This document shows, one piece after another, positions 12,165 through 35,074 of a DNA stretch of 35,074 bases; the first letter of the stretch is position 1; each line of letters opens with the position of its first letter. Both the position numbers and the translations under genes were made by a program. This DNA is from Methanolobus sp. (GTDB lineage: Archaea > Halobacteriota > Methanosarcinia > Methanosarcinales > Methanosarcinaceae), in NCBI GenBank assembly GCA_030154025.1, contig JASKKT010000022.1:1-35074 (forward strand), read 5' to 3'. The notes under the pieces were generated by a model. That model did not search any database. It saw only the letters and a program-made list of their open reading frames with translations, and was not told the DNA's origin.

Positions 12165-12179
12165 ATAGAATGCCTCCAT

Positions 12180-12558: not shown

Positions 12559-13299
12559 ATGTCTGAACAGCAGCTGGCGGCTTATCCGGAAACTTATATC
12601 AATTCCATAGGCATGGAGTTCGTATCGATACTCTCAGGTGAGTTCAATATGGGTTCGGTGTCTGATGAAAAAAACTGGTACAGGAATGAGCGACCACTGC
12701 ATAAGGTAAGCATAAGGAGAGCCTTTTTGCTGGGGAGATATGAAGTGACGCAAAAACAATGGACCGACATCATGGGCATCAATCCTTCCAGAATATCCGG
12801 GGATGACAGGCCTGTTGACAAGATATCCTGGAATGAGGCACGGGAGTTTATCCGAAGGCTCAATGAAAAGGAATCTACTGATAAGTACCGCCTGCCCACA
12901 GAGGCAGAGTGGGAGTATGCATGCAGGGCAGGAACAAACAGCAGGTACTCGTTCGGGGATGACGATGAAGAACTTCCTGAGTATGGCTGGTATGGTGAAG
13001 GTGAGAACGTAGGTGCGTATCCGGTAGGCCAGAAAAAACCAAATCCCTGGGGCCTGCATGATATGCATGGCAACCTGTGGGAGTGGGTGCAGGACAGGTA
13101 TCATGAGAGCTATGAAGGCGCCCCTGATGACGGCAGTGCCTGGGAACAAACTGCTGCAAATGCCAAGGTCCTGTATGTCCTGCGTGGTGGCAGCTGGATA
13201 ACTTCCGCAGTAGGCTGCCGTTCTGCGAGCCGCTATTTCTATTCACCCGATGGCCGGCGGAGCAGAAGGATAGGCCTGCGTATCGCCCGTGATCTCTAA
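12559..13299 (+). CDS. Formylglycine-generating-enzyme (FGE/SUMF1)-fold protein
   Basis: A 246-residue protein of the FGE-sulfatase family (PF03781). Motifs in order: GMEFVSILSGEFNMGS, GRYEVTQKQW, RLPTEAEWEYACRAG, NPWGLHDMHGNLWEWVQD and VLRGGSW. In true FGEs the segment after GGS carries two active-site cysteines (GGS-x2-C-x4-C). Here the first position is Thr (GGSWIT) and only the second is Cys (SAVGC). Oxidation of sulfatase cysteines is therefore doubtful, and a binding or other catalytic role is possible, as in many FGE-fold paralogues. AAAGGAG lies 9 nt before the ATG. It is divergent from the corrinoid gene and has a decayed relative at 32974-33328. Confidence 0.85.
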   Translation: MSEQQLAAYPETYINSIGMEFVSILSGEFNMGSVSDEKNWYRNERPLHKVSIRRAFLLGRYEVTQKQWTDIMGINPSRISGDDRPVDKISWNEAREFIRRLNEKESTDKYRLPTEAEWEYACRAGTNSRYSFGDDDEELPEYGWYGEGENVGAYPVGQKKPNPWGLHDMHGNLWEWVQDRYHESYEGAPDDGSAWEQTAANAKVLYVLRGGSWITSAVGCRSASRYFYSPDGRRSRRIGLRIARDL

Positions 13300-18604: not shown

Positions 18605-20248
18605 ATGTATGGTATTGCAATAGATCTTGGCACAAGTGGTTTTCGTTTGCAGCTCATAGACCTTGAATCAAGGAGTGTCATTAAGACCATAATGACGATG
18701 AAGCATCCTCTCCCCGGTGGGAATGTCATCGATCACCTTGGTTTTGCCATCCAGGTGGGTGGGGACATTGCAAATAAGATCATTATCCATACACTCCAGC
18801 AGATGTTCGATATGCTTCCTGTCCCTCCCGAGGATGTCAGGAGAATTGCGGTGTGCGGTAATCCTATCCAGCTTTCCCTGTTCCAGAATATCGAGATAAG
18901 GGACCTTGCATATGCCGGTAAGAACATGCAGCAAAGGCTTGGTATTGGCGAAGTGAAGAGAGGCCTGAAAGTTTACGATGCTACCGGGATCTTCGGGAAA
19001 TCCTCCGGGCTGGACAATTGTGATCTGATTGTACTGCCATCCATAGAACATGAGATAGGGGCGGATGCCCTTGCCATGATGGTCAAGACGGATTTCGTGG
19101 AACAGGATGGAATATCCCTTGTAACTGATTATGGGACTAATGCCGAGATGGCACTCAAGGTGAATGGTCGCATAATCACATGCAGTGCCGCGGCAGGTCC
19201 GGCTATCGAGGGACAGGGTATAAAATGCGGCATGCTTGCAAGCCCTGGTGCGATATCCGATGTGAATGAAGAGAAGGGTATGTGGAGGCTCACCGTCCTG
19301 GATGAACGCATGGATGGCAGGAAAAGCCATCTGATCGATCCTCTTACCGGTATCATCTTTGAGAAGGGTGAGATCTCTCCCGAGGGTATCACAGGCACAG
19401 GCGTCATCTCAGCCATCTCGCTTGCAATGAGCATGGGTCTTATCAGGACACTGCCTCACCTCCCCAACGGAAAGCTTATCCTGGGTGAAGGGGTTGAGAT
19501 CAGCGATAAGGATATCGAGGAGGCTGGAAAGGCTATCGGGGCCATCCGGGCTGCTCACATGACGCTTCTTGTTGAATCGGGGCTCGGGTTCGAGGACCTT
19601 GAGTATATGTACATGTCAGGTGCCTCGGGAACTTATGTAGATGCGGACAAGGCAAGGAGGATAGGCCTTGCACCCAGGTTCGCAAAAAAGATAGTCCAGT
19701 TCGGAAACACATCTCTGGAGCTGGCAAAGGATGTTGTGCTCGGGAACTATGATCTGCAGGAGATACAGGAACTTGCTGACAGGATAAAAGCAGACCATAT
19801 AATGCTGGCTTCCAATGAAACCTTCAAGAATATCTATGCCTGCGAGCTTGCATACTGGACCGAGGGCATGCCGGAAGACGTATATAATACCATCCTTGAA
19901 TCCTATGATATGCCCCGGATGCCCCTACTGGAGCTTACACCATTCTTCCAGAAAAGGGTCAGAAAGGACATCTCAAGTTCAGAGTCCACCGGTATCGAGA
20001 TCATGCAGAACATGAGCACCATCATAGAGGAAGAGTCTTCCGGATGCATGGGGTGCGGGATATGCGAGAGAGAGTGCCCTGAAAAAGCCATCAAAATAAT
20101 CAATAAGAACGGAAGTCTGTTCGCAGGATATACGGCTCATCTCTGTCTGGGTATGAGCTGTAAAAGATGCATAAGGATATGCCCGGCCAAGGCGATCCGT
20201 TACAGAGAGATAAGACCTGTGTCCAGTGAGGATCTGTCTGTACTCTGA
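18605..20248 (+). CDS. ramA: RamA-type corrinoid protein reductive activase, paralogue 1
   Basis: A 547-residue homologue of RamA, which uses ATP to reduce inactive Co(II) corrinoid proteins to active Co(I). The ASKHA-type domain starts with GIAIDLGTSGFRLQLIDL. It continues through AVCGNPIQLSLFQN, RDLAYAGKNMQ, VTDYGTNAEMAL, SAAAGPAIEGQGI and IVQFGNTSLELA, all conserved in RamA. The C-terminus carries two [4Fe-4S] motifs: CMGCGICERECP and, after CLGMSC, KRCIRICP. GGAGG lies eight bases before the ATG. It is a single-gene unit with its own promoter. It is closely related to the second copy at 30801, so one may serve the fusion protein and the other a different corrinoid protein. The symbol here denotes the family. 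Confidence 0.9.
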   Translation: MYGIAIDLGTSGFRLQLIDLESRSVIKTIMTMKHPLPGGNVIDHLGFAIQVGGDIANKIIIHTLQQMFDMLPVPPEDVRRIAVCGNPIQLSLFQNIEIRDLAYAGKNMQQRLGIGEVKRGLKVYDATGIFGKSSGLDNCDLIVLPSIEHEIGADALAMMVKTDFVEQDGISLVTDYGTNAEMALKVNGRIITCSAAAGPAIEGQGIKCGMLASPGAISDVNEEKGMWRLTVLDERMDGRKSHLIDPLTGIIFEKGEISPEGITGTGVISAISLAMSMGLIRTLPHLPNGKLILGEGVEISDKDIEEAGKAIGAIRAAHMTLLVESGLGFEDLEYMYMSGASGTYVDADKARRIGLAPRFAKKIVQFGNTSLELAKDVVLGNYDLQEIQELADRIKADHIMLASNETFKNIYACELAYWTEGMPEDVYNTILESYDMPRMPLLELTPFFQKRVRKDISSSESTGIEIMQNMSTIIEEESSGCMGCGICERECPEKAIKIINKNGSLFAGYTAHLCLGMSCKRCIRICPAKAIRYREIRPVSSEDLSVL

Positions 20249-20362: not shown

Positions 20363-22879
20363 ATGGTTGGACAATTAAATCAAAAAATCAGCATGGACTC
20401 CATCATCAATAGCAGTCCTATCATTGTGATCTCAAGGAAGGTCGAAAAGGATTTTCCTGTCAGGTTCGTATCCAACAATATAAGACAGTTCGGCTATATA
20501 CCTGAAGATTTCTATTCAGGGGAACTTAAATACGCTGATCTTATCCACCCGGATGACCGCAAAGTCGTTCTTAAAGCTTTCAAGTACCTGAACAAGCAGC
20601 TTTCCGACTTTGTCCAGGAATACAGGATAATTACCAGGTTCGGTGAGACACGCTATGTAGAGGACAGGGTTCACATAAGAACATATGACCCTGAAAATGT
20701 GCATATTGAAGGCACCATTCTGGATATCACTGAACGTAAGCATCATGAAATGATCAAACACCAGAAGAACGCAACCAATGGGAAGCCTCTCACAGAGCTG
20801 TCCCTTGAGGATGTTCTCGGAATGCTGGTCACCAATGCAGAGAAGGTTCGTTCCGGCCTTACATGTGCAGTTATGCTGCTGGACAAGAAAAAGCAGTACA
20901 TATGCCGTGTGATCGCACCGAATCTTCCTTTGTTCTTCAAGGAAGCCATGGAAGGCCTTGAGATAGGTTATGGGGTATGCTCCTGCGGCACTGCGCTCTA
21001 CATGGGTGAAAGGGTCATCGTTGACAATATAGAAGAGCATCCGTACTGGTCAAGGCACAGGGAAGTTGCGGAGAAGGCTGGTATAAGGGCCAGCTGGGCC
21101 GAGCCAATAGTGTCCTCCGCTGGTGAAATACTTGGTGTTTTTATCATGTATTTCGATGTTCCCTACGAACCGAAAAAAGCATGCTTCAAATACCTTAAGG
21201 CAAACGCGGACCTGGCAGCCATAGAGATAGAGCACAGGATTGTGAATGAGACATTCAGGGAGTCCGAGCACAAGTTCAAGACAATTTTCAACAATATCAA
21301 TGACCAGATCTATGTCAGTGAACTCAACGGAAACCTTATAGATGTGAACCAGGTGGTTGTTGACAGTCTTGGCTACTCAAAGGATTATATCTTAAGAAGT
21401 TCTCCTATGGATATCGTGCCTTCCTGGTACGTACAGCGTGCCTCAGAACTGATCAAGGTCATTGAGAGAGAACGCAAGGCCATGTATGAAGCTGCAGCTA
21501 TAAGGAAAGATGGCTCTGTCATACCCCTGGAGATAAATGCACGCATGATCGAGTACAATGGTAAGAAGACCATTCTTTCTGTTGCACGTGATATCACAGA
21601 ACGTAAGAAGGCTGAGAAGGCAAAACGGCTGAACGAAGCCCGTCTTGAGGCACTGATCAAGCTCAATGAGATGACAGCTGCTTCCCTGGATGAGATCGCC
21701 GAATTTGCAAAAGAAGAAGCTGTCCGCCTTACAGAAAGCAAACTTGGGTATCTTGCATTCATGAACGCTGATGAGACTGCCCTCATAATGCATTCCTGGT
21801 CAAACTCGGCAATGGCTGAGTGCGGGATCAGTGACAAGCATTTCATTTATCCTATTAAGACCACCGGCTTATGGGGTGAAGCCGTAAGGCAAAGGAAGGC
21901 TATCATCACAAATGACTACTCTGCTCCCAGTGAGCTGAAGAAGGGATATCCAAAAGGTCACGTCGAGCTTGTAAGGCATATGAATGTTCCTATATTCGAC
22001 GGCGATCACATTGTTGCAGTGGCAGGTGTCGGTAATAAGGACGAGGATTATGACGAGTCCGATGTCCGCCAGTTAACGCTTCTTATGCAGGGTATGTGGA
22101 AGCTGATCCAGTCAAAACAACTGATCGGTGCCCTTAGCAAATATTCCGAAGAACTGTCCAAGGCAAACACGGAACTCCGGTCCGTCAATCTGATCAAAGC
22201 AGAGTTCCTTGCAGAGAGCATAAAGAAAGGTCATGACCCGTTGCACGGTTACGATGTGTTCGATGATGAGACATTGAACCTGCTGGATGATTCACAAAAA
22301 GAGGCGATCTCCACATTACTGAGAAACTCGGAAAGACTGAAGCGTCTTATAGACACGGTCCTGTACAGCAATCTGCAGCAATCAGGTAAGATTGAATACA
22401 GTTTTTTACCAGTTAACCTTGGCAGTGTCCTGTCCGATGCACTGCTTAACATGATCCTGCAGATAGATGAAAAGGAGCTTTCACTGGAGAAATCAATACC
22501 TTCAGGGCTTCCTCTGGCAAGGGGTGACAAGGCAAAGCTTACCGAGATGTTCGTTTATCTCATCCACAATGCTATCAATATAACTCCCAAAGGTAATAGT
22601 ATAGGTGTCGGGATCTCGGCAGATGATGGTTACCTGCATGTGACCATAACGGATACCGGAGAAGGTATCGAGAAGGATCTCATCCCTCATCTGTTCAATA
22701 AGATGTACCAGGTGGAGGATTCGATCACAAGGATGTACCAGGGCCTTGAATCAAGTCTCTACATATGTAAGGATACTGTGGTCGCGCACCATGGAAACAT
22801 CTGGGTTGAAAGTGAGATCGGGCAGGGAAGTACGGTCCATGTGAAGATCCCGAAATGGGGTGGAATGGAACAGATTTAG
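20363..22879 (+). CDS. PAS-GAF-PAS-GAF sensor kinase (MsmS/RdmS-like)
   Basis: An 838-residue cytoplasmic sensor without membrane segments. Order: PAS (about 10-130, ending DITERK), GAF (145-295, with CSCGTA and SWAEPIVS), PAS (305-420, ending DITERKKAEKA), GAF (430-585, with GLWGEAVRQRKAIITNDY and VAGVGNKDEDYDESD), a dimerisation region (610-670) and an ATPase domain (720-830; IHNAINITP, DTGEGI). The layout and the location beside Mts-type and Msr genes match MsmS of Methanosarcina acetivorans, a haem-based redox/dimethyl-sulfide sensor with haem bound to a Cys in the second GAF domain. Cys487 (AMAEC) is the only GAF2 Cys here. The canonical H-box His is replaced by Lys621, and the glycine-rich lid is poor (QGLESSLYI). 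A hairpin follows the gene. Confidence 0.85.
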   Translation: MVGQLNQKISMDSIINSSPIIVISRKVEKDFPVRFVSNNIRQFGYIPEDFYSGELKYADLIHPDDRKVVLKAFKYLNKQLSDFVQEYRIITRFGETRYVEDRVHIRTYDPENVHIEGTILDITERKHHEMIKHQKNATNGKPLTELSLEDVLGMLVTNAEKVRSGLTCAVMLLDKKKQYICRVIAPNLPLFFKEAMEGLEIGYGVCSCGTALYMGERVIVDNIEEHPYWSRHREVAEKAGIRASWAEPIVSSAGEILGVFIMYFDVPYEPKKACFKYLKANADLAAIEIEHRIVNETFRESEHKFKTIFNNINDQIYVSELNGNLIDVNQVVVDSLGYSKDYILRSSPMDIVPSWYVQRASELIKVIERERKAMYEAAAIRKDGSVIPLEINARMIEYNGKKTILSVARDITERKKAEKAKRLNEARLEALIKLNEMTAASLDEIAEFAKEEAVRLTESKLGYLAFMNADETALIMHSWSNSAMAECGISDKHFIYPIKTTGLWGEAVRQRKAIITNDYSAPSELKKGYPKGHVELVRHMNVPIFDGDHIVAVAGVGNKDEDYDESDVRQLTLLMQGMWKLIQSKQLIGALSKYSEELSKANTELRSVNLIKAEFLAESIKKGHDPLHGYDVFDDETLNLLDDSQKEAISTLLRNSERLKRLIDTVLYSNLQQSGKIEYSFLPVNLGSVLSDALLNMILQIDEKELSLEKSIPSGLPLARGDKAKLTEMFVYLIHNAINITPKGNSIGVGISADDGYLHVTITDTGEGIEKDLIPHLFNKMYQVEDSITRMYQGLESSLYICKDTVVAHHGNIWVESEIGQGSTVHVKIPKWGGMEQI

Positions 22880-22955: not shown

Positions 22956-23753
22956 ATAAAGCTTGCTCTTCTGGGAACGATTTTTCTATCAGACAAAAGA
23001 ATGGACCTGCTTCTCTTGCTGATAGAAAGGCCTATGTGCATGGAAGAGATCAAAAACACGCTTAATGTGACAACAAGTGCAATGATGACACAGATCAAAA
23101 TATTGATAGATCAGGGACTAGTCGTCTATGAGAATGATCTGTATAAGCTGTCACACTTCGGCGAGGTCATTGTCAGGAAAATAGTTCCTCTGGTTGACAC
23201 CCTGAAGGTTTATTCTGATAACATTGAATACTGGGAAGCCCATAATTTCAGTGCCATACCCTCCTACCTGCAGGACCGGGTAGATGAGCTTGGTGAATGT
23301 GAACTGATAGAACCTGACCTTAACCGCATGTATGAACTGCCCCTGAAACTGGAGACCAGTCTTGAAAAAGTAAGTTCTATAAGGGAAGTATCTTCATATT
23401 TCAGTCCTGCATATCCTTCTAAATATCTCGGGCTTGCAAGAAAGGGAGTTGATATCTGCCTTATCGTATCTGCACCTGTCTTTGAGCGACTAAGGAATGA
23501 ATACAGCCCCGTCCTTGAGGAGTTCTTAAGAATGGATAACGTTGAAATCTATGTTCATGCTGATGCCATCGGTCTTGCTTCCTGCATAGCGACTGACAAA
23601 TTCCTTTCCTTCTCGCTTTTTTTCAGGAACGGCATATATCATAACCATGCAATGATGAGCTGTGACGAAAGAGCTCTTAAGTGGGGTAACGATCTTTTTG
23701 ATTATTTCAAATCCAAATCGTGGCGTGTAGAGAGAATACAGTCTGCTTTATAA
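22956..23753 (+). CDS. Msr-type transcriptional regulator 2 (apparent ATA start)
   Basis: A winged-helix plus DUF1724 regulator of the same family as the one at 17012 (shared FLSDKR, EEIKN, TTSAMMTQIKILIDQGL, EYWE, FSAIP, ARKG, ALKWGNDLF). The first ATG is at 23001, but that would delete the first helix. In frame upstream, codons from ATA at 22956 (ATA AAG CTT GCT...) align residue for residue with the start of regulator 1 (IKLALLGTIFLSDKR against MKAELISTVFLSEKR), and GAGGTGAT (22945-22952) stands directly before it. So ATA is either an unusual start codon or a mutated ATG. The sensor domain lacks the CPTC pair of regulator 1 (it reads SPAYP). A terminator follows, then the fusion-gene promoter region. 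Confidence 0.8.
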   Translation: MKLALLGTIFLSDKRMDLLLLLIERPMCMEEIKNTLNVTTSAMMTQIKILIDQGLVVYENDLYKLSHFGEVIVRKIVPLVDTLKVYSDNIEYWEAHNFSAIPSYLQDRVDELGECELIEPDLNRMYELPLKLETSLEKVSSIREVSSYFSPAYPSKYLGLARKGVDICLIVSAPVFERLRNEYSPVLEEFLRMDNVEIYVHADAIGLASCIATDKFLSFSLFFRNGIYHNHAMMSCDERALKWGNDLFDYFKSKSWRVERIQSAL

Positions 23754-23975: not shown

Positions 23976-24048
23976 CAATAATTTCCTACTCTCTGTGTCA
24001 ATAGTAGACAGTAAATCGCTATTGAAAAAAATAAATTGGAGGTATATT

Positions 24049-25953
24049 ATGGAAGCTGCTATTCTGAACAAATTAGCGGAAGCTGTAGTTGAAGGCGATG
24101 AAGAGCTTGCACAGGAACTTGCGCAGAATGTCATCGATGAAGGATTAGATCCCTACGAGGCAATTGTAGATGGCCTGGCCAGGGGAATGATGATAATCAG
24201 TGACAAGTATGAAAAGGGAGAAGCATTCGTCCCGCATCTGCTTATTGCTTCAGGAGCAATGTATGCAGGCATGGATATCCTAAGCCCTGCAATGAAGAAA
24301 GCAGGATCTAACGAAGCTGCTGTTGGAGTAATTGGCAGTATTGAGGGTGATGTGCATGATATAGGCAAGAACCTTGTCAAGACAATGCTCTCTGCATCAG
24401 GTTTCAAGATGATCGACCTGGGTGCGGACACACCTGTGGAGAAGTTTGTCGAGGCTGCCAAAGAGCATAAAGCAGACCTTATTTCCATGAGCGCTTTGAT
24501 GACAACCACCATGGTGAACATGGAAAAGGTCATTGAGATGCTTCAGGAAGAAGGCATACGCGACTCCCTGAAAGTAATGATCGGCGGAGCACCGGTGTCG
24601 GAAGAATTTGCAAAGCAGATCGGGGCTGACTCGACCCATGCAGATGCAATGCATGCAAGCCACTGGGCAAGTGAGAGCGTAAAGCAGTTAGAACCTAACC
24701 AGATAAGGTGGACCCAGGAGAAGGTAAGCCTTGGTAAAGTGAAGTACAGGGAACAGCTCTCTAAAAAGAAGGTAAAGGGCAAGACTGATATCGGACTGGA
24801 AACTGCCAGGCAGATTATCGAAGAGTTCGAAAAGGTCGGTGTCAAGTCAAAAGAGCAGATGACCCACATGGACAGGACCCTGGCTGCAATGGGGGACAAG
24901 AAAGTCGACAGGCTGCCTGTATATCCGCTTGCCTGCGGTATCATGAGGAAGTTTGCCAACCAGAACTACAAGCAGTATGCGACCAGTCCCAATGCATTTG
25001 TGGAAAGTGCATTCCTTGGGTCCAAATATCTGGACACAGACATGTTCGTTGGACTGATCGACCTTTCAGCCACTTCCTCTGACTTTGGCTGCAAGATCAA
25101 GTACCCTGAAGATGATACTCCTTCCTCTGAAGGCCACCTTAAGAGTTACGAAAACCTTGAAACCCCTGAGGTCAAAGAAGGGACCCGCGCATATGAACTT
25201 ATAATGGCATCAAAAGCAGCAACTGAGAAACTGAACAAGGAACTGAACACTCCTTTTGTTGGTTTCCATGAGGGGCCACTTCTCACCCTTACCCAGCTCA
25301 TGGGTGCAGATAGAGTGCTTATGGATATGAAGACCCACCCGGATGTTGTGCTTGAGGCTTTGCAGAAATGTACAGATTATATCTGCCAGGTATCCGAGCT
25401 CTTCTTTGAAGAGAATGCCTGCAACGCCTTGTGTATAGACAACCTCTGGTCCAACAACGTTATCATGAGCGAAGAGGACTACTGGAAGTTCGACGGTAAG
25501 TTTGTCTATGACCAGCATCTGCCTCTCTTCAAAAAGTACGACCAGCCCTACATAATCCACAACTGCGCCGATGCAGTGCACTTTGACACCCAGATCAAGA
25601 AGTTTGGTACAAAACTGTACAGCTACGCATACTATCCGAAGCAGAGAAGCAAGGGATCCCAGAACTATGCAGACCTTATTCCCAAGTACGGTGACATGTG
25701 CTGCATGATGGGTGAGATCAACCCCATAGACTTTATGGACAACTCAGCCAGTGGCGTCCAGAAGATCCGGACTGATACAAAGTCTTTGCTTGAAGGTGTC
25801 CTCCCCGTGCTCAAGGAGAACGGACTGCAGTCCAAGTATGTAATGTCTTCAGGATGTGAGATCCCGCCAGGAGGACCGCTGAACACTGTCAAGGCTATGG
25901 TGGACACGGTCAAGGAACTTGGTCCGCAGCTGCAGAAAAGTGTTATTGGATAA
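24049..25953 (+). CDS. Fused corrinoid protein/methylcobamide:CoM methyltransferase (Mts type)
   Basis: A 634-residue fusion. Residues 1-220 are a corrinoid protein with GDVHDIGKNLV (His103 as cobalt ligand). Residues 220-270 form a charged linker. Residues 270-634 are a UroD-fold methyltransferase with zinc ligands His504 and Cys506 (IIHNCAD) and Cys603 (SSGCEIP). This architecture is that of MtsD/MtsF/MtsH of Methanosarcina acetivorans, which carry out methyl transfer between methyl sulfides and coenzyme M in one polypeptide. The frame extends to a GTG at 23995, but GGAGGT at 24038-24043 and the predicted transcription start favour the ATG at 24049. A terminator-like hairpin follows, so this first gene may be made in excess over the accessory genes behind it. 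Substrate (methanethiol, dimethyl sulfide or another) is inferred. Confidence 0.88.
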   Translation: MEAAILNKLAEAVVEGDEELAQELAQNVIDEGLDPYEAIVDGLARGMMIISDKYEKGEAFVPHLLIASGAMYAGMDILSPAMKKAGSNEAAVGVIGSIEGDVHDIGKNLVKTMLSASGFKMIDLGADTPVEKFVEAAKEHKADLISMSALMTTTMVNMEKVIEMLQEEGIRDSLKVMIGGAPVSEEFAKQIGADSTHADAMHASHWASESVKQLEPNQIRWTQEKVSLGKVKYREQLSKKKVKGKTDIGLETARQIIEEFEKVGVKSKEQMTHMDRTLAAMGDKKVDRLPVYPLACGIMRKFANQNYKQYATSPNAFVESAFLGSKYLDTDMFVGLIDLSATSSDFGCKIKYPEDDTPSSEGHLKSYENLETPEVKEGTRAYELIMASKAATEKLNKELNTPFVGFHEGPLLTLTQLMGADRVLMDMKTHPDVVLEALQKCTDYICQVSELFFEENACNALCIDNLWSNNVIMSEEDYWKFDGKFVYDQHLPLFKKYDQPYIIHNCADAVHFDTQIKKFGTKLYSYAYYPKQRSKGSQNYADLIPKYGDMCCMMGEINPIDFMDNSASGVQKIRTDTKSLLEGVLPVLKENGLQSKYVMSSGCEIPPGGPLNTVKAMVDTVKELGPQLQKSVIG

Positions 25954-25955
25954 AT

Positions 25956-25977
25956 AAGGGAGTTAATTCCCTTTTTT
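25956..25977 (+). terminator. Attenuator/terminator after the fusion gene
   Basis: AAGGGA (25956-25961) pairs with TCCCTT (25968-25973) and runs into a T-rich tract (TTTT to 25977). It begins two bases after the stop. Since the following genes lack an obvious promoter, partial read-through is likely. Confidence 0.6.
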
Positions 25978-26039
25978 ATCTATTTGTTTTTGCGATGCAG
26001 CGGGGTGATTGATGATAATATGGGTCTTTATCCGCTAAA

Positions 26040-26056
26040 GGCGGCTGAATGCCGCC
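26040..26056 (+). other. GC-rich hairpin in the leader of the hydantoinase-like gene
   Basis: GGCGGC (26040-26045) pairs with GCCGCC (26051-26056) around TGAAT, 38 nt before the ATG at 26095. It may be a processing or stabilising element between the two genes. Confidence 0.4.
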
Positions 26057-26094
26057 CTACCTTCCATCGCTTTATTCAAGAAAAGGTGACTATC

Positions 26095-28044
26095 ATGAAC
26101 ACTCAACTTGGGAATCTGGGACTTGGTATCGATACAGGCGGTACTTACACTGACGCAGTAATAATGGATCTTGCAAAGGGAGAGATAATCGACTCATTTA
26201 AATCACTGACAACTTATCCTGACCTGGTAAAAGGCATAGAAGATACCCTGCGGGGTCTGGATCAGGAATATCTTAAAAAGGTCGGCTTTACTTCCGTATC
26301 AACAACCCTGGCAACTAATACCACACTTGAAGGCAAAGGGTATCCTGCGGGCCTTATTCTCATTGGTTACTCCATAAGTAAGGAACTACCTACCGATTAT
26401 GTGATCTCCGTTGATGGAGGACATGATTCTGACGGCAATGAGACCCATACGCTTGGAAACCTGGAGGATATCAGGGATTTTGTGCTGCAGAACCGGAACA
26501 AAGTAGCTGCGTTTGCTATCTCCTCCTACTTTGGTGTGAGGAATCCTGAACACGAGCTCCGTGTAAAAGAGTATGTCCGTGAGCTGACAGACCTTCCTGT
26601 GGTATGCGGGCATGAGCTTTCCCTGAGCCTCGGCGCCTATGAAAGGGCAGTCACTGCATTGCTGAATGCCCAGCTTATACCTGTTATAGACGATTTTATC
26701 AAATCCGTTTTATCCGTAATGAAAAAGATGGGGATCGATTCCACACTGATGATGATGAAATGCGACGGTTCCCTTGTCAGGATAGAGAAAGCTCTCGAAA
26801 AACCGGTGGAATCCATTTTCTCGGGGCCTGCTGCAAGTCTTGTAGGCGCGGCCCATCTGACAGGTCTTAAGACCTGCGTAGCCCTGGATATTGGGGGAAC
26901 GAGCACAGATATTGCAATGATACGCGATGGTATCCCGATAGTAAATGATTCAGGCGCTGTTGTCGGGGGCTGGAGCACCATGGTGAAGGCCATAAAAATG
27001 GATACTTCCGCCCTTGGCGGGGACAGCCATGTATGGGTGCAGAAGAAAACGTATATTGGTCCAAAAAGAGTGATACCTCTATGCCTGGCTGCATCGGAAT
27101 ATCCTGCCCTAATAGAGAAGCTGGCTACCCCTGATAAGTTCTCTCCACGTATGATGACTGATTTAATGCAGCCAACTGCATTCTTCTTAAGCAGGAATGG
27201 ATGTTCTTTATGCATGAAGTTGTCTGATCTTAGTGGAGAGGAAGTAAAGGTACTCGAAGCAATTGGAGATAATCCTTCATCCTTATCGGATATAGAGAAA
27301 AAGTTAAAGATGCACCCACTCATGTTCATCGATATTCTCCGCTCCCTTGTCAGGAAGAGGTATGTCCAGCAGATAGGCTTCACGCCCACGGATGCACTGC
27401 ATGTTCTGGGAGAATATCACGAATGGAACAGAACAGCATCTTTTATGGGCGCGGACATACTTGCCTCTTATCTCAACATGGGCAGGGATGAATTCTGTAT
27501 CAAATTAAAAGAGGAGTTCCAGAAAAATCTTGCTTTGCACCTGGTCTCATATTTTGGTTCCGATATTAAAAAAGAGGATGTCCGGAAGTTCCTGGAATGC
27601 TCAGATGCCATTGTATTCAGGCCCAGGATCCCTGTTGTAATGGTCGGTGCTCCCGTGAAGGCCTATGAAAAGGAGCTGGGCAGCATTATCGAAGCTGATA
27701 CAAGGATCCCTGACTATTATGAGGTCGGCAATGCTGTGGGTGCACTTGTGGGTGACGTTATATACAGGACAGAAATGCTGATAAGGCCTTCAACTGCTGG
27801 CAGTTCCAGCTATACTCTCTTTTCAGATAAAGGAAGGCATGTGTTTGACGATCATAAGGAAGCAGTGGATCACGCAATTGCACATGCCGAGCAGTCTGTG
27901 AAAGAATACATGAGAGGCTATGGGTTGAGCATGGAAAATGTCAATTTCGAGCTTAAAATGAACGATATCGGAAGCATGGGTACGCTTCCTCTTGAAACAA
28001 AACTTGTCGGAATCGCTGTGGGCAGCCCCAGGAGGGGCATATGA
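26095..28044 (+). CDS. Hydantoinase/oxoprolinase-family ATPase (HyuA-like)
   Basis: A 649-residue protein with both phosphate-binding motifs of the HyuA/ASKHA fold: GIDTGGTYTD (11-20) and ALDIGGTSTD (263-272), plus FSGPAASLVGAAHL and GFTPTDALHVLG. The frame opens at 25984, but AGGTGA five bases before the ATG at 26095 and the family N-terminus fix the start. No HyuB/oxoprolinase B or acetone-carboxylase partner is nearby. In this operon its ATPase fold suggests a service role, such as reactivating or maturing the corrinoid/methyltransferase protein, as RamA does with a related fold. That role is inferred. It overlaps the chaperonin gene by four bases. Confidence 0.82.
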   Translation: MNTQLGNLGLGIDTGGTYTDAVIMDLAKGEIIDSFKSLTTYPDLVKGIEDTLRGLDQEYLKKVGFTSVSTTLATNTTLEGKGYPAGLILIGYSISKELPTDYVISVDGGHDSDGNETHTLGNLEDIRDFVLQNRNKVAAFAISSYFGVRNPEHELRVKEYVRELTDLPVVCGHELSLSLGAYERAVTALLNAQLIPVIDDFIKSVLSVMKKMGIDSTLMMMKCDGSLVRIEKALEKPVESIFSGPAASLVGAAHLTGLKTCVALDIGGTSTDIAMIRDGIPIVNDSGAVVGGWSTMVKAIKMDTSALGGDSHVWVQKKTYIGPKRVIPLCLAASEYPALIEKLATPDKFSPRMMTDLMQPTAFFLSRNGCSLCMKLSDLSGEEVKVLEAIGDNPSSLSDIEKKLKMHPLMFIDILRSLVRKRYVQQIGFTPTDALHVLGEYHEWNRTASFMGADILASYLNMGRDEFCIKLKEEFQKNLALHLVSYFGSDIKKEDVRKFLECSDAIVFRPRIPVVMVGAPVKAYEKELGSIIEADTRIPDYYEVGNAVGALVGDVIYRTEMLIRPSTAGSSSYTLFSDKGRHVFDDHKEAVDHAIAHAEQSVKEYMRGYGLSMENVNFELKMNDIGSMGTLPLETKLVGIAVGSPRRGI

Positions 28045-29648
28045 GCAGTTTAATGGCATCGGAGCACGGAACTCACGAATTGGACAGCATGGCTGCCCTT
28101 CGCCAGAGCGTGCGTAACCGTATCGTAATAACAGGTGACGTGGAGGAAAACGAGCTGTTGTACCAGATGCATCAGGCTTCCCGGGATATAAAGGATCTTT
28201 TTGCATCGTCTTTCGGTCCCTGCGGAATGAGCAAGATCATAATCAGTCCCACAGACGATATTTACATGACAAGCGATGGGAAGACCATTATTGAAGAGAT
28301 AGATGTGCTGCACCCGGTGGTCACGTCCCTCAAAAAACTCGCAATATCAATGGATAAAGCATGTGGTGACGGTACAAAAACAGCGGTCATCCTGGCAGCC
28401 TCACTCATCGGGAACGCAGTCAGGCTTGCAGGCCAGGGCCTGCATCCTGCAACCATCATAAAAGGATATCAGCTTGCATTGAACAAAGCTTATGAGATCC
28501 TTGAATATGAGAGTATGCAGGTAGTATCTGAGGAAGATTTCAATTCAGTGATAGAGAATGCCAGCCTGAGTAAAGGAGTGGAACCCAGGCAGGCCAGAAA
28601 GATCACAGAACTTGTAACGAGAACGATCTCGAATCTCAAAAGCACTGATGATGGCTCCCGGATCGAGCTTAATGACTACGTCAAGATCATTAAGAAAGTA
28701 GGCGGGCCTGAGATAGAATGTATCCCTGGCATAATCCTTGACGAGACTCCTGTAAGGGATGACATGCCACAGCACATCAAAGATGCAAGGATCCTCATAT
28801 TGAACTACAATGTCAGATTTGAGAGCAAGATAATAAACTCCCAGCGCAATATACGGATAGAAGGTACTGATAATTCAATGCTTCTGATGCAGGAGCAGGC
28901 AAGGTCGCTAAAGGGCCTTGCAAAGAAAATTATAGATTCGGGAGCAGACCTGGTGCTATGTGAAGGAAGTGTGGATGAATCTGTGGAGGATTCTCTTGCA
29001 AAGCACGGTGTCCTGCTTTTTAAGAAGCTCAAGATGAAGGACCTGGAGATGATCTCTAAAGCAACGGGTGCTAGTATCGTTTCCATAAAGGATGATATCC
29101 TGCCTGATGATCTTGGATTTGCGGACGAGGTGAATGTCAGGAAAAAATGTGATGAGCACTTCCTTTTCCTTTCTGTCAGTGGACAGCCCATATCCACCAT
29201 TTTGATATGGGAGCCTTTTGGCTACGGCCTTGAGAAGCTTGAGGAGGCAGTTGATGATGCTCTCAATAATGCAGCTTTCCTGATGAAGGGCCCGTTTGTC
29301 GTAAGTGGGGGCGGGTGTATCGAATTCGTGCTCTCGCAGATGCTCAGGCGATATGCATCTACTATTGAGGGGAAGGAGCAGCTTGCCGTAATTGAATATG
29401 CAAATGCCCTTGAAGAAATTCCCAGGATACTGGCCCGGAATGCCGGAATGAATGCAACCGATGCAATGGTTCAGATGCTGCACTATTATGGCAAGGGGAT
29501 CGACTGCAGGATAGACCGGACAGGAGAGGTGGTTCCGAATATTCCTCCTGTATATGATCCATCGAGCATAAAGAAATTGTCCGTTATTGCAGCAACAGAA
29601 TCGGTGAATAGCTTACTGAGGATAGATAAGATACTACTGAAAAAATAG
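28041..29648 (+). CDS. Divergent group II chaperonin (thermosome/Hsp60-like)
   Basis: A 535-residue chaperonin of the thermosome/CCT family. Family motifs: FGPCGMSKIII (58-68), TSDGKTIIEEI (77-87), GDGTKTAVILAASL (109-122), VSGGGCIEF and AVDDALNNA. The nucleotide loop normally GDGTT is GDGTK (Lys113), and NDGATIL is SDGKTII. The Asp of the hydrolysis region (DDA) is kept. It lacks the Gly/Met-rich tail of housekeeping thermosomes and ends DKILLKK. Divergent chaperonins (Hsp60-4 and -5) have been reported in Methanosarcina acetivorans, and I recall one being near an mts gene. AGGAGGGG precedes the ATG. Coupled to the ATPase gene upstream, it is probably dedicated to folding or assembling the methyltransferase proteins of this operon. 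Confidence 0.85.
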   Translation: MSSLMASEHGTHELDSMAALRQSVRNRIVITGDVEENELLYQMHQASRDIKDLFASSFGPCGMSKIIISPTDDIYMTSDGKTIIEEIDVLHPVVTSLKKLAISMDKACGDGTKTAVILAASLIGNAVRLAGQGLHPATIIKGYQLALNKAYEILEYESMQVVSEEDFNSVIENASLSKGVEPRQARKITELVTRTISNLKSTDDGSRIELNDYVKIIKKVGGPEIECIPGIILDETPVRDDMPQHIKDARILILNYNVRFESKIINSQRNIRIEGTDNSMLLMQEQARSLKGLAKKIIDSGADLVLCEGSVDESVEDSLAKHGVLLFKKLKMKDLEMISKATGASIVSIKDDILPDDLGFADEVNVRKKCDEHFLFLSVSGQPISTILIWEPFGYGLEKLEEAVDDALNNAAFLMKGPFVVSGGGCIEFVLSQMLRRYASTIEGKEQLAVIEYANALEEIPRILARNAGMNATDAMVQMLHYYGKGIDCRIDRTGEVVPNIPPVYDPSSIKKLSVIAATESVNSLLRIDKILLKK

Positions 29649-29675
29649 CCGTCGTCAATAAGGAGGGAATCACAG

Positions 29676-30788
29676 ATGACCGAGGAAATGACATCAAAGG
29701 AGCGTTTTATCAATGCTCTTGAAATGAAGGAAGTTGACAGGGTACCGCTTGGATACCTGTGGTTTGGAGCGGGCAACGCAGTTCTTGATCGCATGAACGC
29801 AACGATGCAGGACGTTTACTATTCCGCCAGGGGAATTGCCAGGGCTCAGGTATTGGCAAGGGAGATGTATCATCATGACAATGTCATGTCACCCTGGGGC
29901 TGCTTGTTAGTGGAAGCAGAAGCCCTGGGTGCAAAACTGAACACTAGAACCAACGCTTATCCCACCATAGCTGAATTCCCCTTGAGCTCTGCCAGAGAAT
30001 ATGAGAAGATAAATCCAAGGGATATGGAGCGTTCAGAGAGAGTAAGAACCATAGAGGAATCCATTGTCCTGCTCAAAAAAGAGCTTGGGGATGAGGCTTT
30101 TATCAGCTGTGCCTCCCTTACTCCTCTTATGCTTGCCTCTCAGGTGATGGACGGAAGCCGGATGTGCATGGAGATGATCAGGAATAAGGACCAGCTCCAT
30201 GAATTGCTGGAGCTTCTCACTGAAAGCTGTATCATTTTTGCGGACAGGATGCTGGATGCAGGAGCAGACGGGGTATTTGCAGAGAACGGAGGCAGTACAG
30301 CAGATCTTTTCAGTCCTGAGATGGCAAAGGAGTTTGGTTCACGTTATACAAAGGAAGTATATTCTCATATACAGGACCGGGGTGGATATGTGATATCCCA
30401 TAACTGTGCAGCCCATGCGTTCCATGAGCTGGAGCTGGCCCTTGAGCCAGATGCCCTGAACTTTGCATTTGGTGACGTAAAGTCACTGGGAAAGAATTAT
30501 GGTGTTGAGTGCGGGAAACTCCATAACCATAAAAGCATAGGATGTGCACAAAGATACTGTTTCAGGGAATTTAAGCCTTTCCAGGATGCGGGTGTATGCC
30601 TGATGGGCAACATCAATCCCTATATCTTCGGTTCCGGTATGCTTAAAGATATTGCCGGAGAGGTCAGGAACTGTATGATGGCTGCCCCTGATAAGGGTTT
30701 CATCCTCTCTACCGGATGTGAGATCCCTCTGGATGCACCTTATGAGGAGATGCAGGTAATGTGGGAGTCAATGAGGGCCTGTTTCTGA
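29676..30788 (+). CDS. Zinc methyltransferase of the UroD/MtaA/MtsA superfamily
   Basis: A 370-residue UroD-fold methyltransferase. Zinc ligands are His242 and Cys244 in ISHNCAAH and Cys348 in LSTGCEIPLD, the same HNC...GCEIP pattern as the C-terminal half of the fusion protein rather than the HIC...GCGI pattern of MtbA. It also has many additional Cys residues (for example Cys279, 290, 295, 308, 333). AAGGAGGG precedes the ATG; it follows the chaperonin by 27 nt and precedes ramA 2 by 12 nt, so the genes are surely co-transcribed. It may be a second methyltransferase that demethylates a substrate onto the fusion's corrinoid domain, or passes its methyl to a thiol. Direction and substrate are not visible. 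Confidence 0.82.
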   Translation: MTEEMTSKERFINALEMKEVDRVPLGYLWFGAGNAVLDRMNATMQDVYYSARGIARAQVLAREMYHHDNVMSPWGCLLVEAEALGAKLNTRTNAYPTIAEFPLSSAREYEKINPRDMERSERVRTIEESIVLLKKELGDEAFISCASLTPLMLASQVMDGSRMCMEMIRNKDQLHELLELLTESCIIFADRMLDAGADGVFAENGGSTADLFSPEMAKEFGSRYTKEVYSHIQDRGGYVISHNCAAHAFHELELALEPDALNFAFGDVKSLGKNYGVECGKLHNHKSIGCAQRYCFREFKPFQDAGVCLMGNINPYIFGSGMLKDIAGEVRNCMMAAPDKGFILSTGCEIPLDAPYEEMQVMWESMRACF

Positions 30789-30800
30789 TGGAGGCTTAAG

Positions 30801-32435
30801 ATGTATGGAATTGCAATGGACCTGGGCACAAGCGGTTTCCGTGCACAGCTTATAGATCTTGTTTCCGGAAAGGTGATCAAGACATCCATGACCACCAGAC
30901 ATCCTCTTCCGGGAGCCAATATAACCGACCACCTTGATTTTGCAATTACCGTGGGTGAGGGGCTAGCTCATGAGATAATGACAGATGCAGTGTGCAAACT
31001 GATAAAAAACCTCACTGATGACACTATGCAGATAAGTAAGATAGCAGTGTGCGGGAATCCTATACAATTATCACTCTTCCAGAACTCCGAGATACGGGAC
31101 CTTGCCTATGCAGGCAGGAACATGCAGAAAAGGCTGGGTGTTGAAAATGTGGAGCGACAGGCAAGGATCTTCCCCGCAGCAGATATTTTCAAAGACAGGC
31201 TTGATCTTGGAAGATGCGATATCATAGTGCCTCCGGCAGTTCAGCATGAGGTTGGTGCAGATGCGCTTGCTATGATGCTGGAAACAGATTTCCTGGACCA
31301 GTCGGCTCCCACGCTGGTTACAGACTATGGCACTAATGCTGAAATGGCTATTAAGGTGGGAAACAGGATCATAACAGGAAGTGCTGCTGCAGGTCCGGCT
31401 ATCGAGGGACAGGGAATAAGCTGTGGCATGCTTGCAGGTCCGGGTGCGATATCCGATGTCAACAGCGAAGGGAAATACTGGCGGCTCACAGTGCTTGATG
31501 AGGATATGGCAGGCAGGCCTTCCCATCTGGTCGACCCCCGTACTGGTGATATTATAGAAGAGACAGACATTCGACCTGCAGGAATAACAGGTACTGGCCT
31601 CATTGCCTGCCTGACCCTTGCAATGCAAACAGGACTAATTGAAAAACCTCCAAGACTTAAATACGGAAAACTTATCCTTGGAGAGGGGATACGCATCTCC
31701 GAAAGTGATATAAAGGAAGCAGGCAAGGCCATAGGTGCGATAAGGGCTGCACAGCTGACATTGATAATTGAAGCCGGGCTTGCTTATGAAGAACTTGTGA
31801 ATGCTTACATGACAGGTGCGTCCGGTACCTATGTCGATCCCTGGAAGGCTCTGTACGTGGGTTCCTGCCCCAAGTATACCAGGAGGATAGTCCAGTTCGG
31901 GAATACCTCGCTCTCTCTCGCCAGGAGGATACTGACTGAAGATTCAAAGCTTGCGGAAGTCATCGATCTTGCCAGCAGGATAAAAGTTGACCATCTTATG
32001 ATGGCTACAAGTACTACCTTTAAGAATTTCTATACCTGCGAACTGTCTTTCTGGACAGAAGGCATGGACATGGAATTATATAATAGGTTCCTGAAGATAT
32101 ATAAGCTTCCGGTTCTGCCTGCGGCTTTTAGTGAACCCCTGATGGAAAAGAGCTCCCGGAAAGATATTGCAGAAGCAGGGTCCGAGAGCATAAGGCATGT
32201 TGATGATATCGGTGTTACTCTTGAGGAGATTGCCCCTGGCTGTATAATGTGCCACCAGTGTGAAGATGAATGTCCGGAAAAAGCCATCTCAAGTATCGAG
32301 AATGATGGTGCTCCAGTGGTCAGATACAGTACACGGAGATGTCTCGGGACTGCCTGCAAAAGGTGTGTGAAGGTCTGTCCGGTAAAAGCTATCGAATACA
32401 GGGAGATCAGGATATTATCTGAAGGCAATTATTAA
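30801..32435 (+). CDS. ramA: RamA-type corrinoid protein reductive activase, paralogue 2
   Basis: A 544-residue RamA-family protein, closely similar to the copy at 18605 throughout (GIAMDLGTSGFRAQLIDL, AVCGNPIQLSLFQN, VTDYGTNAEMAI, SAAAGPAIEGQGI, IVQFGNTSLSLA). The ferredoxin tail has CIMCHQCEDECP and, after CLGTAC, KRCVKVCP. GGAGG lies seven bases before the ATG. As the last gene of the five-gene run it is the likely reactivase of the fusion corrinoid protein: ATP-driven reduction of Co(II) to Co(I) after accidental oxidation. A T-run preceded by the palindrome AATGACGTCATT (32484-32495) follows about 50 nt downstream and may end the transcript. Confidence 0.9.
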   Translation: MYGIAMDLGTSGFRAQLIDLVSGKVIKTSMTTRHPLPGANITDHLDFAITVGEGLAHEIMTDAVCKLIKNLTDDTMQISKIAVCGNPIQLSLFQNSEIRDLAYAGRNMQKRLGVENVERQARIFPAADIFKDRLDLGRCDIIVPPAVQHEVGADALAMMLETDFLDQSAPTLVTDYGTNAEMAIKVGNRIITGSAAAGPAIEGQGISCGMLAGPGAISDVNSEGKYWRLTVLDEDMAGRPSHLVDPRTGDIIEETDIRPAGITGTGLIACLTLAMQTGLIEKPPRLKYGKLILGEGIRISESDIKEAGKAIGAIRAAQLTLIIEAGLAYEELVNAYMTGASGTYVDPWKALYVGSCPKYTRRIVQFGNTSLSLARRILTEDSKLAEVIDLASRIKVDHLMMATSTTFKNFYTCELSFWTEGMDMELYNRFLKIYKLPVLPAAFSEPLMEKSSRKDIAEAGSESIRHVDDIGVTLEEIAPGCIMCHQCEDECPEKAISSIENDGAPVVRYSTRRCLGTACKRCVKVCPVKAIEYREIRILSEGNY

Positions 32436-32483: not shown

Positions 32484-32499
32484 AATGACGTCATTTTTT
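32484..32499 (+). terminator. Palindrome plus T-run between convergent genes
   Basis: The perfect palindrome AATGACGTCATT (32484-32495) runs into TTTT. Since archaeal termination mainly needs a U-run, this is a plausible end for the methyltransferase operon. The arms have no loop, so hairpin formation is weak. Confidence 0.35.
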
Positions 32500-32810
32500 C
32501 ATACCGGTAGTGCCTCGTTCAGTATGTTTTTTCCAATATTGGTCTTCAAGGCACTTTTGAGCACCAGGTCCACTTTTATTCCTAAAGTATCGGAAAGGTA
32601 GTTCTCAAGCTCAACGAATTCAAGAAGACCAGGAGCTTCACTGAACTCAACTAATATGTCAAGGTCACTGCTCTGCGTCTGTTCTTTTCTCACATAGGAG
32701 CCGAAAACAGCAAGATAACTTACTTTGAATCTTTCTTCCAGTTCCGGAAGCAGTTCATGGAGCTGCTGAATGTACTTCTCAGTTGCTTCAGATTTGAGTG
32801 ACGGTGTCAT
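32499..32810 (-). CDS. MNT-type nucleotidyltransferase (MntA-like antitoxin), solitary
   Basis: A 103-residue minimal nucleotidyltransferase. The catalytic motif GSYVRKEQTQSSDLDILVEF (GS-x10-DxD) is intact, and VDLVLKSALK supplies the third-strand Asp. Such proteins act as antitoxins by adenylylating a HEPN RNase toxin. No HEPN gene is adjacent on this strand, so it is an orphan. GTGAT eleven bases before the ATG may be its ribosome site. It meets the methyltransferase operon tail to tail. Confidence 0.82.
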   Translation of the reverse strand: MTPSLKSEATEKYIQQLHELLPELEERFKVSYLAVFGSYVRKEQTQSSDLDILVEFSEAPGLLEFVELENYLSDTLGIKVDLVLKSALKTNIGKNILNEALPV

Positions 32811-32973: not shown

Positions 32974-33328
32974 TTATATTTTTCGAAGTAGACGGAAACC
33001 GAGATCGTAATTGCTGTCTTCATGATTAGCACCTGTACGGTAAGTTGATTTACAGGTCTCATAACTAAGGGCCCAACTGCCTACGCGTAGAACCCTATGA
33101 ACGTTGAGATCTATTTTCAAGTCGGCATCAACTGATGCACCAACAGCAGGGTCAATAATCTCAAACGCACTTCCATTGCCTGGTGTCCCAACATAAGATT
33201 CATGCCAGATATCCTGGCACCACTCCACTACATTACCATGAATATCATACAAACCCAGGCATTAGGCTTCTTCTGGCCTACAGGATGGATCCTGTCTTCC
33301 GGCTTTTCAATACGTGGATTAGTGTCAT
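32974..33328 (-). pseudogene. Remnant of a formylglycine-generating-enzyme-fold gene
   Basis: The 92-residue frame (32974-33252) starts at MYDIHGNVVEWCQD and ends FRLLRKI, the C-terminal third of an FGE-fold protein. Upstream on the same strand, codons for NPRIEKPEDRIHPVGQKKPNAW (from about 33328) continue the same family in another frame; a single missing G near 33255 breaks GQKKPNAWG-LYDIHG. The N-terminal half is absent. It resembles the intact gene at 12559 (PVGQKKPNPWGLHDMHG). It is a decayed second copy. Confidence 0.75.
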
Positions 33329-33529: not shown

Positions 33530-33814
33530 ATGGATGCCCTTCAGATATTAAGAGAACATGAGAAAGTGATAATAGAGCGTTTTGGCGTAAACAAAATAGC
33601 TATTTTTGGTTCTTTTGCTAAGGGAGAAGAGCACATCGATAGTGACGTTGATGTTCTGATTGAATTCAAGGAAGGCAGAAAGACTTTTGATAACTATATG
33701 GAATTGAAGTTCTATCTTGAAGAGATCTTTGGAAGAAAAGTGGACCTTGTTATTGAGAACGCAATAAAGCCAACTCTCAGGGAAACAATTCTTAAAGAGG
33801 CTGTTTATGCCTAG
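33530..33814 (+). CDS. mntA: MntA-type nucleotidyltransferase antitoxin
   Basis: A 94-residue MNT nucleotidyltransferase with GSFAKGEEHIDSDVDVLIEF (GS-x10-DxD) and VDLVIENAIKP. It would AMPylate the Tyr of its HEPN partner's RX4HXY motif and so neutralise it. The gene overlaps the following HepT gene by eight bases (the ATG of HepT lies within GTTTATGCCTAG), the usual layout for MntA-HepT modules. It is only distantly similar to the solitary MNT protein at 32499. Confidence 0.88.
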   Translation: MDALQILREHEKVIIERFGVNKIAIFGSFAKGEEHIDSDVDVLIEFKEGRKTFDNYMELKFYLEEIFGRKVDLVIENAIKPTLRETILKEAVYA

Positions 33815-34172
33815 GACCCGCTGGTTTTCTTTGCAGATATGCTTGGTGCAATTGAGAAAATCCAGAGATATTGAGAAAGTCCATAGATATCTTGAGAATG
33901 TTTCTTTTGCGCAATTTGCGGAAGACGACATGAGAATAGATGCTGTTGTCCGCAACCTTGAGATTATTGGCGAAGCTGCAGGTAAAATCCCTCCTGAGAC
34001 CAGAGATGAGTATCCTGATATCCCGTGGAAAAAGATAGTGGGACTGAGGAACATCCTGATACACGAATATTTTGGAATTGACATTGAGACCATATGGGAT
34101 GTGGTCGAGAATCACCTTGGCAATCTGAAAATAGAAGTGCAGAGGATTGTAGAATACCAGAAGCCCAGGTAG
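33807..34172 (+). CDS. hepT: HepT-type HEPN protein (DUF86), with scrambled N-terminal segment
   Basis: A 121-residue DUF86/HEPN RNase toxin. The core RNLEIIGEAAGKIPPE, PDIPWKKIVGLRN and the catalytic RX4HXY motif RNILIHEY are intact. Residues 4 to about 21 (TRWFSLQICLVQLRKSR) are unlike the family; the same DNA read one frame over gives the expected DPLVFFADMLGAIEKIQRY. A missing base just after ATGCCTAG and a 19-nt tandem duplication (33851-33888) together shift the frame out and back. The protein is therefore full length but with a wrong first helix, and may be weakened or inactive. The alternative, a sequencing error, would have to affect two sites. Confidence 0.82.
   Translation: MPRTRWFSLQICLVQLRKSRDIEKVHRYLENVSFAQFAEDDMRIDAVVRNLEIIGEAAGKIPPETRDEYPDIPWKKIVGLRNILIHEYFGIDIETIWDVVENHLGNLKIEVQRIVEYQKPR
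33851..33888 (+). repeat. 19-nt tandem duplication inside hepT
   Basis: ATTGAGAAAATCCAGAGAT (33851-33869) is followed directly by ATTGAGAAAGTCCATAGAT (33870-33888), identical at 17 of 19 positions. The length is not a multiple of three, so it changes the reading frame of hepT. Confidence 0.85.
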
Positions 34173-34609: not shown

Positions 34610-35074
34610 TTGCCACCACAATCAATTGTCGGAAGAAAGAGAGCTGATGACCGTAAGGTCATCAACGGAATTCTCTTTGTTCTGATAACTGGTTGCAGAT
34701 GGGCAGATATGCCGCAATGCTATGGTTCACGAGCAACAGCATGGAGACGGTTGAAATGGTGGTCAGAAGGGAGAATTTGGAACACGATAATGGAATCCCT
34801 TCGGGATTCAGCTTATAATGATGGTAAGTTCTCCATGGACATTGTATGTGTTCATAGCACTTTCATCGAAACAAAAAAAGGGGAGAAGATTCCGCGCATA
34901 CAACGGTCACAAAAGAAGGAAAGGAGTAAAAGTTCATGCTTGTGTGAGTTGTGAAGGTTTTCCGTTGACCATTCAAATCTCTTCTGGAAAAGAACACGAT
35001 AGCCAACATTTCATTGAGGTTCTGGAAGACATTAAGGTAAAGTCGAGCAGAAGACCAAGAACAAGACCCATAGA
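34610..35074 (+). mobile_element. Truncated and inactivated IS5-family transposase (runs off the window)
   Basis: Reading from the TTG at 34610, the protein has IS5-type features (LPPQSIVGRKRADDRKVINGI, TGCRWADMPQCYGS, TAWRRLKWWSEGRIW). The usual first 20-odd residues before LLP are missing, with a stop at 34577 in frame. The first catalytic Asp (usually DST) is His: VHSTF. After the A7G4 tract near 34874-34884 the family continues in another frame (FRAYNGHKRRKGVKVHAC, then GKEHDSQHFIEVLE) to the window edge, while the first frame stops at 34954. Some IS5 elements use frameshifting, but the missing N-terminus and lost Asp indicate a dead copy. Confidence 0.75.

Follow-up and report, generated by a model that had tools for sequence, protein, structure and literature searches.

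Why should an operon built around a fused corrinoid/zinc methyltransferase carry a chaperonin of its own? The question is raised by a contig of Methanolobus sp. (JASKKT010000022.1, assembly GCA_030154025.1), analyzed here over a stretch of 35,074 nt (the window) that is part of a 2.26-Mb genome, for which M. halotolerans, M. vulcani and M. bombayensis are the closest named relatives. Five open, intact and co-oriented genes in the window (24049–32435, + strand) encode an Mts-type fusion enzyme (gene 1), a HyuA-like ATPase (gene 2), a divergent chaperonin (gene 3), a second zinc methyltransferase (gene 4) and a RamA-type activase (gene 5; Table 1). The host genome additionally has three ordinary group II chaperonin genes and one GroEL-like gene. 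We consider it probable, at roughly 60%, that gene 3 is a dedicated folding or assembly chaperonin for the fused Mts enzyme.

Gene 3 is a member of a separate group II chaperonin lineage. The Cpn60_TCP1 domain spans its whole length (400 bits), and its scores against archaeal thermosome models stay below their cut-offs (353 bits vs. 671 for thermosome_arch of NCBIfam; 353 and 342 bits vs. 450 and 400 for thermosome alpha and beta, respectively); with at most 72 bits against GroEL models, it does not belong to group I. Hits in 112 genomes of the family Methanosarcinaceae split cleanly into those at 45–100% identity and those, representing ordinary thermosomes, at no more than 35%. In a maximum-likelihood tree (long branches present), 28 members of the lineage, together with two chaperonins from a second class (family f8, probably Archaeoglobaceae; hereafter Archaeoglobaceae-like), are split from 34 ordinary subunits by a 100/100 branch. 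The protein displays the motifs TSDG, GDGT and DDAL, and in the alignment D79, D110 and D406 are invariant and all catalytic residues are kept in 28/28 Methanosarcinaceae members. An AlphaFold single-chain model (pLDDT 82), for which the best PDB matches are Mm-Cpn structures (TM 0.8–0.86), predicts a complete three-domain group II subunit fold. Thus, gene 3 shares fold and catalytic residues with the thermosome and Mm-Cpn, and differs from them in its separate ancestry (28–35% identity), its sub-cut-off model scores, a set of private residues marking the lineage (S57, C108, K113, E235, R239, G309, E316, K329 and E402) and its occurrence solely in genomes with a fused Mts.

This last property was evaluated at two levels. 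Within the 112 Methanosarcinaceae genomes, the lineage comprises 60 genes in 47 genomes of ten genera, 58 of them no more than 3.2 kb from a fused Mts gene and the other two at contig ends, and every genome with the chaperonin also has the fusion. Six genomes have a fusion and no chaperonin match: in three of them (G087, G092, G096) the fusion lies at contig ends, the first ~70 chaperonin residues being found at both contig ends in G092, and the assemblies of the other three (G048, G049, G101) are incomplete or fragmented. Sampling across the phylum (393 genomes) gave 35 with the fusion, 32 of which also have the chaperonin (the three misses again have the fusion at contig ends), vs. 0/358 of the fusion-less genomes. 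An earlier note on this DNA, made from the sequence alone, had staked its interpretation on such linkage existing elsewhere, and the linkage, now traced through ten genera and a second class, is far above chance. When 84,980 species were scanned with patterns derived from the Methanosarcinaceae members, only that family and four ordinary-looking thermosomes were returned; these patterns do not fit the two Archaeoglobaceae-like copies, and diverged members elsewhere may escape them. Fused Mts proteins have also been reported for Methanomassiliicoccales (PMC10805028).

Which neighbor the chaperonin follows can be read from 20 loci flanked by 9 kb or more on each side. A fusion is present at all 20, followed in frequency by an Msr-type regulator (18), RamA (14, counted within 9 kb), an MtbA-like gene (13), a histidine kinase (11) and a CobW-family gene (9), and a HyuA-like gene stands within 500 bp of the chaperonin at 12. 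The fusion, and not RamA or HyuA, is therefore the constant partner, and this linkage is kept while gene order varies (fusion-hyuA-cpn, fusion-cpn, hyuA-cpn-fusion). The MtbA-like gene was likewise rejected as a constant partner, and the same counts do not sustain the self-contained five-gene module proposed in the earlier note; other genera have a CobW-family GTPase instead. By inspection, none of the listed hits to ordinary thermosome genes lies within 8 kb of a fusion. In three Methanosarcina genomes (G081, contig C1 at 3.78 Mb; G084, C44; G097, C58), an ordinary thermosome gene is found ~30 kb from the mtsF-linked chaperonin.

The fused enzyme itself can be assigned with some precision. 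Gene 1 combines B12-binding_2, B12-binding and URO-D domains in one chain (Pfam/NCBIfam), with the cobalt ligand His103 within DVHDIG and a zinc site of the HxC plus C type (H504, C506, C603). It is 79, 66 and 55% identical to the three fusions of Methanosarcina acetivorans at 1.02, 5.61 and 5.41 Mb, respectively. The 5.41-Mb fusion has an Msr gene before it and an mtaC-like, two hydantoinase-like and two Msr genes behind it; this matches the surroundings of MA4384 (MtsF/CmtA) as given in PMC11619418, and we assign it accordingly. With MtsH being MA4558 (PMC7374477), the remaining fusions are, by gene number, MtsH and MtsD (MA0859). The closest fusion is thus MtsD by gene number and position, and the window carries its orthologue, with the same domains and metal sites, for which dimethyl sulfide/methanethiol:CoM activity may be expected from orthology. 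The Mts assignment made from the sequence alone is thereby upheld and narrowed to the MtsD type, and the metal and cofactor motifs listed with it (His103, HxC plus C twice, the ATPase and chaperonin motifs) proved intact.

Genomes with more than one such locus add a further line of evidence. The chaperonins of D- and F-type loci (those of MtsD and MtsF relatives) are 96.8% identical in M. acetivorans and 96.6% in UBA289 (87–100% across same-genome pairs), vs. 82–93% for D-locus orthologues from different Methanosarcina and ~55% for the D and F fusions themselves. Copies of one genome are thus closer than orthologues between species, implying that they have been homogenised or recently re-duplicated, and could constitute one chaperonin pool, or a shared ring, for both D and F enzymes. 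In G084 the D-type locus is without a chaperonin, as are the second locus in G016 and the mtsH loci, and G080 and G083 have F-type copies that are cut or broken; each of these genomes retains an intact copy elsewhere.

The same distribution bears on the possibility that gene 3 is a general auxiliary chaperonin acting proteome-wide, induced alongside Mts (on methyl sulfides, CO or stalled methanogenesis) and placed at the locus for the sake of co-regulation. Expression data are compatible with it, mts genes being strongly induced when conditions resemble stress: mtsD is induced ~100-fold on MCR limitation (PMC11267899), and the block MA4384–MA4394 rises jointly upon HdrED repression (PMC11619418). 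By position, the chaperonin gene located at 5.415 Mb in M. acetivorans falls inside this block, which fits a dedicated Mts chaperonin as well, although the text consulted does not name a chaperonin. A general role would equally put the gene under the Msr regulator seen at 18/20 loci. However, the chaperonin is absent from every genome lacking a fused Mts, including species of Methanosarcina, Methanolobus and Methanococcoides; the constant feature of its loci is the fusion and not the type of regulator; and Archaeoglobaceae-like genomes keep it only alongside the fusion. We therefore regard a general role as unlikely.

In the second class, the fusion was found in only two of the 55 Archaeoglobaceae-like genomes (one of them a 54%-complete assembly), and both have a lineage chaperonin directly behind it, with frames 9 and 13 bp apart and no HyuA-like gene adjacent to either. 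Both chaperonins have lost D79 (to K), T112 (to V) and the catalytic D406 (to S or N), and nevertheless stay coupled to the fusion. This, along with the unusual K113 in the GDGTK of the Methanosarcinaceae lineage, would suit a non-folding role, in which the protein acts as a scaffold or cofactor-insertion factor holding the enzyme open for corrinoid or zinc, or as a specialised subunit within an ordinary thermosome ring; the retention of every catalytic residue in all 28 Methanosarcinaceae members and the full three-domain fold predicted for gene 3 speak against it and leave it improbable. A bolder proposal, which we would advance only tentatively, is that the whole group II lineage serves one client, the fused Mts, folding the enzyme and gating corrinoid and zinc insertion, with the ATPase-dead Archaeoglobaceae-like descendant acting as a passive assembly scaffold for the same client. 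These relatives without ATPase residues amount to a natural experiment on what the client requires of its chaperonin. A conserved protein of ~180 aa is encoded between RamA and the chaperonin at both Archaeoglobaceae-like loci (L142, 9589–10131; L143, 3639–4205), the L142 copy having no Pfam match.

That the client is instead another product of the locus, either the HyuA-like ATPase, whose gene overlaps that of the chaperonin by 4 bp in the window and adjoins it at most D-type loci, or RamA, with only an indirect link to Mts, is very improbable, as F-type and Archaeoglobaceae-like loci have fusion and chaperonin without an adjacent HyuA, and neither neighbor (12/20 and 14/20) matches the 20/20 of the fusion.

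Several points weigh against a dedicated folding chaperonin. MtsH-type fusions do not have one of their own, though their genomes have one elsewhere, and co-regulation alone could produce the observed linkage. The loss of ATPase residues in the Archaeoglobaceae-like copies means that ATP-driven folding is not essential everywhere. MtsF/CmtA has reportedly been made active in Escherichia coli, which has GroEL and not this chaperonin. Finally, the counts given above share phylogeny, and the independent events behind them are few (three locus types or more, and the two Archaeoglobaceae-like cases).

If gene 3 is indeed a dedicated Mts chaperonin, the locus could operate as follows. Msr/kinase signalling would turn it on, and the fused enzyme would be made in bulk, with a T-run behind its stop codon perhaps restraining the downstream genes. 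The chaperonin would most likely form its own ATP-driven folding chamber, or join subunits of its own kind from a second locus, and would fold or assemble the 634-aa two-domain enzyme, possibly during insertion of corrinoid and zinc. RamA would then re-reduce the corrinoid to Co(I), and the HyuA-like ATPase may aid D- and H-type enzymes, perhaps as a reactivase or a conformational switch.

This ATPase, whose role is the least certain part of the scheme, contains Hydant_A_N and Hydantoinase_A domains (the latter matched only over 1–144 of 291) and two phosphate loops, GGTYTD and GGTSTD. It shares the ASKHA ATPase fold with HyuA, the acetone carboxylase beta subunit, RACo and RamA, its fold being that of the first two. 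It differs from these proteins in its unique C-terminal half, which includes a winged-helix-like stretch (by eye), and in having neither a HyuB or carboxylase partner nor a 4Fe-4S motif. No HyuB gene lies beside it, its flanking genes belonging to other families, which argues against a hydantoinase or 5-oxoprolinase. Likewise, no ferredoxin-type Cys motif was found in the protein (the only fully conserved Cys are C171, C223 and C261), and a function as an iron-sulfur activator of the RamA/RACo type was rejected.

The genomic context of gene 2 relatives is mixed. The closest clade adjoins the chaperonin at D-type loci and stands upstream of mtsH-type ones; F-type loci and Archaeoglobaceae-like genomes are without it, and relatives at ~50% identity sit away from any methyltransferase. 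Across paralogue neighborhoods in four genomes, several are near corrinoid proteins, and the M. acetivorans pair at 4.33 Mb and loci L179, L188 and L192 have no detected methyltransferase neighbor. A general partnership of HyuA-like proteins with corrinoid methyltransferases was rejected on account of these paralogues, which leaves only the D/H-type clade tied to Mts. The tie between ATPase and fusion suggested by the earlier note thus stands for D- and H-type loci and fails for F-type and Archaeoglobaceae-like ones, and gene 2 may represent a second accessory factor, specific to the D/H type. At the 4.33-Mb locus (L180), which is away from methyltransferases, the tandem HyuA-like genes neighbor an apparent pyruvoyl-dependent arginine decarboxylase gene (by eye).

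The chaperonins of M. acetivorans are known already, and their link to Mts appears to be the new part. They were reportedly described by Maeder et al. in 2005 ("Novel chaperonins in a prokaryote"). Subunits 4 and 5, presumably those named Hsp60-4 and Hsp60-5, very probably belong to the Mts-linked lineage, as this species has two lineage genes, beside mtsD and mtsF. Reviews list five group II subunits for M. acetivorans, place 4 and 5 in a common cluster and regard them as additional thermosome subunits specific to a single species (PMC5220055, PMC6420498), in contrast to the 47 genomes of ten genera, all with a fused Mts, found here. MtsD, MtsF and MtsH of M. acetivorans have been characterized (Oelgeschlager and Rother, 2009; Fu and Metcalf, 2015; via PMC7374477, PMC10762971). 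Neither a chaperonin nor a HyuA partner of these enzymes is mentioned in the literature searched, which did not cover the 2009–2015 Mts papers, where neighboring genes could be mentioned. The nearest functional parallel, by analogy, is MmoG of soluble methane monooxygenase operons, a divergent operon-encoded chaperonin believed to fold a single metalloenzyme of C1 metabolism (PMC9324122); MmoG, however, is GroEL-like (group I) and occurs in aerobic bacteria, whereas gene 3 is an archaeal group II protein with a different client.

Chaperonins are normally generalists; those with a single client, such as MmoG, are rare and belong to group I. A group II lineage devoted to one enzyme would therefore provide a tractable system for client recognition in archaea, the more so as M. 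acetivorans is genetically amenable and has only two copies, and would explain the purpose of its "extra" thermosome subunits. In practical terms, production of fused Mts enzymes, whose substrates are climate-relevant compounds (dimethyl sulfide, methanethiol), may require the chaperonin.

Table 1. Features of the 35,074-nt Methanolobus sp. window in and around the five-gene operon.
Feature	Position	Strand	Basis
Fused corrinoid/zinc methyltransferase, MtsD type, 634 aa (gene 1)	24049..25953	+	Pfam/NCBIfam, motifs, identity to M. acetivorans fusions
Hairpin then T-runs, directly 3' of fusion stop; possible partial terminator	25956..25992	+	weak
HyuA-like ASKHA ATPase, 649 aa, without HyuB partner (gene 2)	26095..28044	+	domain search, fold comparison
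Mts-linked divergent group II chaperonin, 535 aa; ATPase residues D79, D110, D406 intact (gene 3)	28041..29648	+	domains, tree, alignment, model
MtaA/MtbA-like zinc methylcorrinoid methyltransferase, 370 aa (gene 4)	29676..30788	+	domain search, motifs
RamA-type corrinoid reductive activase, 544 aa, two 4Fe-4S motifs (gene 5)	30801..32435	+	domain search, motifs
FilR1/Msr-type regulator, immediately upstream of fusion gene	23001..23753	+	domain search
PAS/GAF histidine kinase	20363..22879	+	domain search
Second RamA, upstream of kinase gene	18605..20248	+	domain search

The layout of the operon agrees with the description it had first been given, five genes on one strand with overlaps or short gaps from gene 2 on: gaps of 27 and 12 bp precede genes 4 and 5, and 141 bp separate genes 1 and 2. 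Alternative starts exist for gene 1 (a GTG at 23995, giving a longer frame) and gene 2 (a listed TTG at 25984, upstream of the ATG at 26095). The 141-bp gap contains a hairpin followed by a T-run, which might possibly lower expression of the downstream genes; other Methanolobus and Methanococcoides have a T-run at a similar position, the hairpin itself is not conserved, and terminator-like sites in the region are about as numerous as by chance (9 observed vs. 8.1). The exact five-gene set is chiefly a Methanolobus arrangement. The order kinase-Msr-fusion is also seen in other genera, in which a homologue of the PAS/GAF kinase precedes mtsD- and mtsH-type loci.

Of the remaining operon members, gene 4 belongs to the URO-D family (zinc site H242, C244, C348) and occupies this position mainly in Methanolobus. 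Gene 5 combines a RACo C-terminal domain with 4Fe-4S motifs (Cys 481/484/487/491 and 514/519/522/526) and scores 726 bits against the RamA model TIGR04270 (cut-off 500). A CobW-family (COG0523) GTPase is not encoded in the window; it stands directly behind the chaperonin at both M. acetivorans loci and near mtsH, Methanococcoides and Methanohalobium loci (seen in L074, L075, L076, L102 and L114). This family, which follows the chaperonin in several genera, includes metal chaperones known from other organisms, and its presence fits a maturation theme.

Elsewhere in the window, the – strand carries an unfused pair consisting of a corrinoid protein (11499–12179), which shares 57% identity with the fusion's corrinoid domain, and an MtaA/MtbA-like methyltransferase (10258–11277). 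By eye, a formylglycine-generating-enzyme-like (SUMF1) gene lies at 12559–13299, and a fragment of another, on the – strand, lies beyond the operon at 32974–33252. Adjacent MNT nucleotidyltransferase and HepT-like genes (33530–34172) resemble a toxin-antitoxin pair of the HEPN-MNT type, a further MNT gene is located on the other strand (32499–32810), and a fragment of an IS4/5-family transposase (DUF4096; 34610–34954) lies at the contig end.

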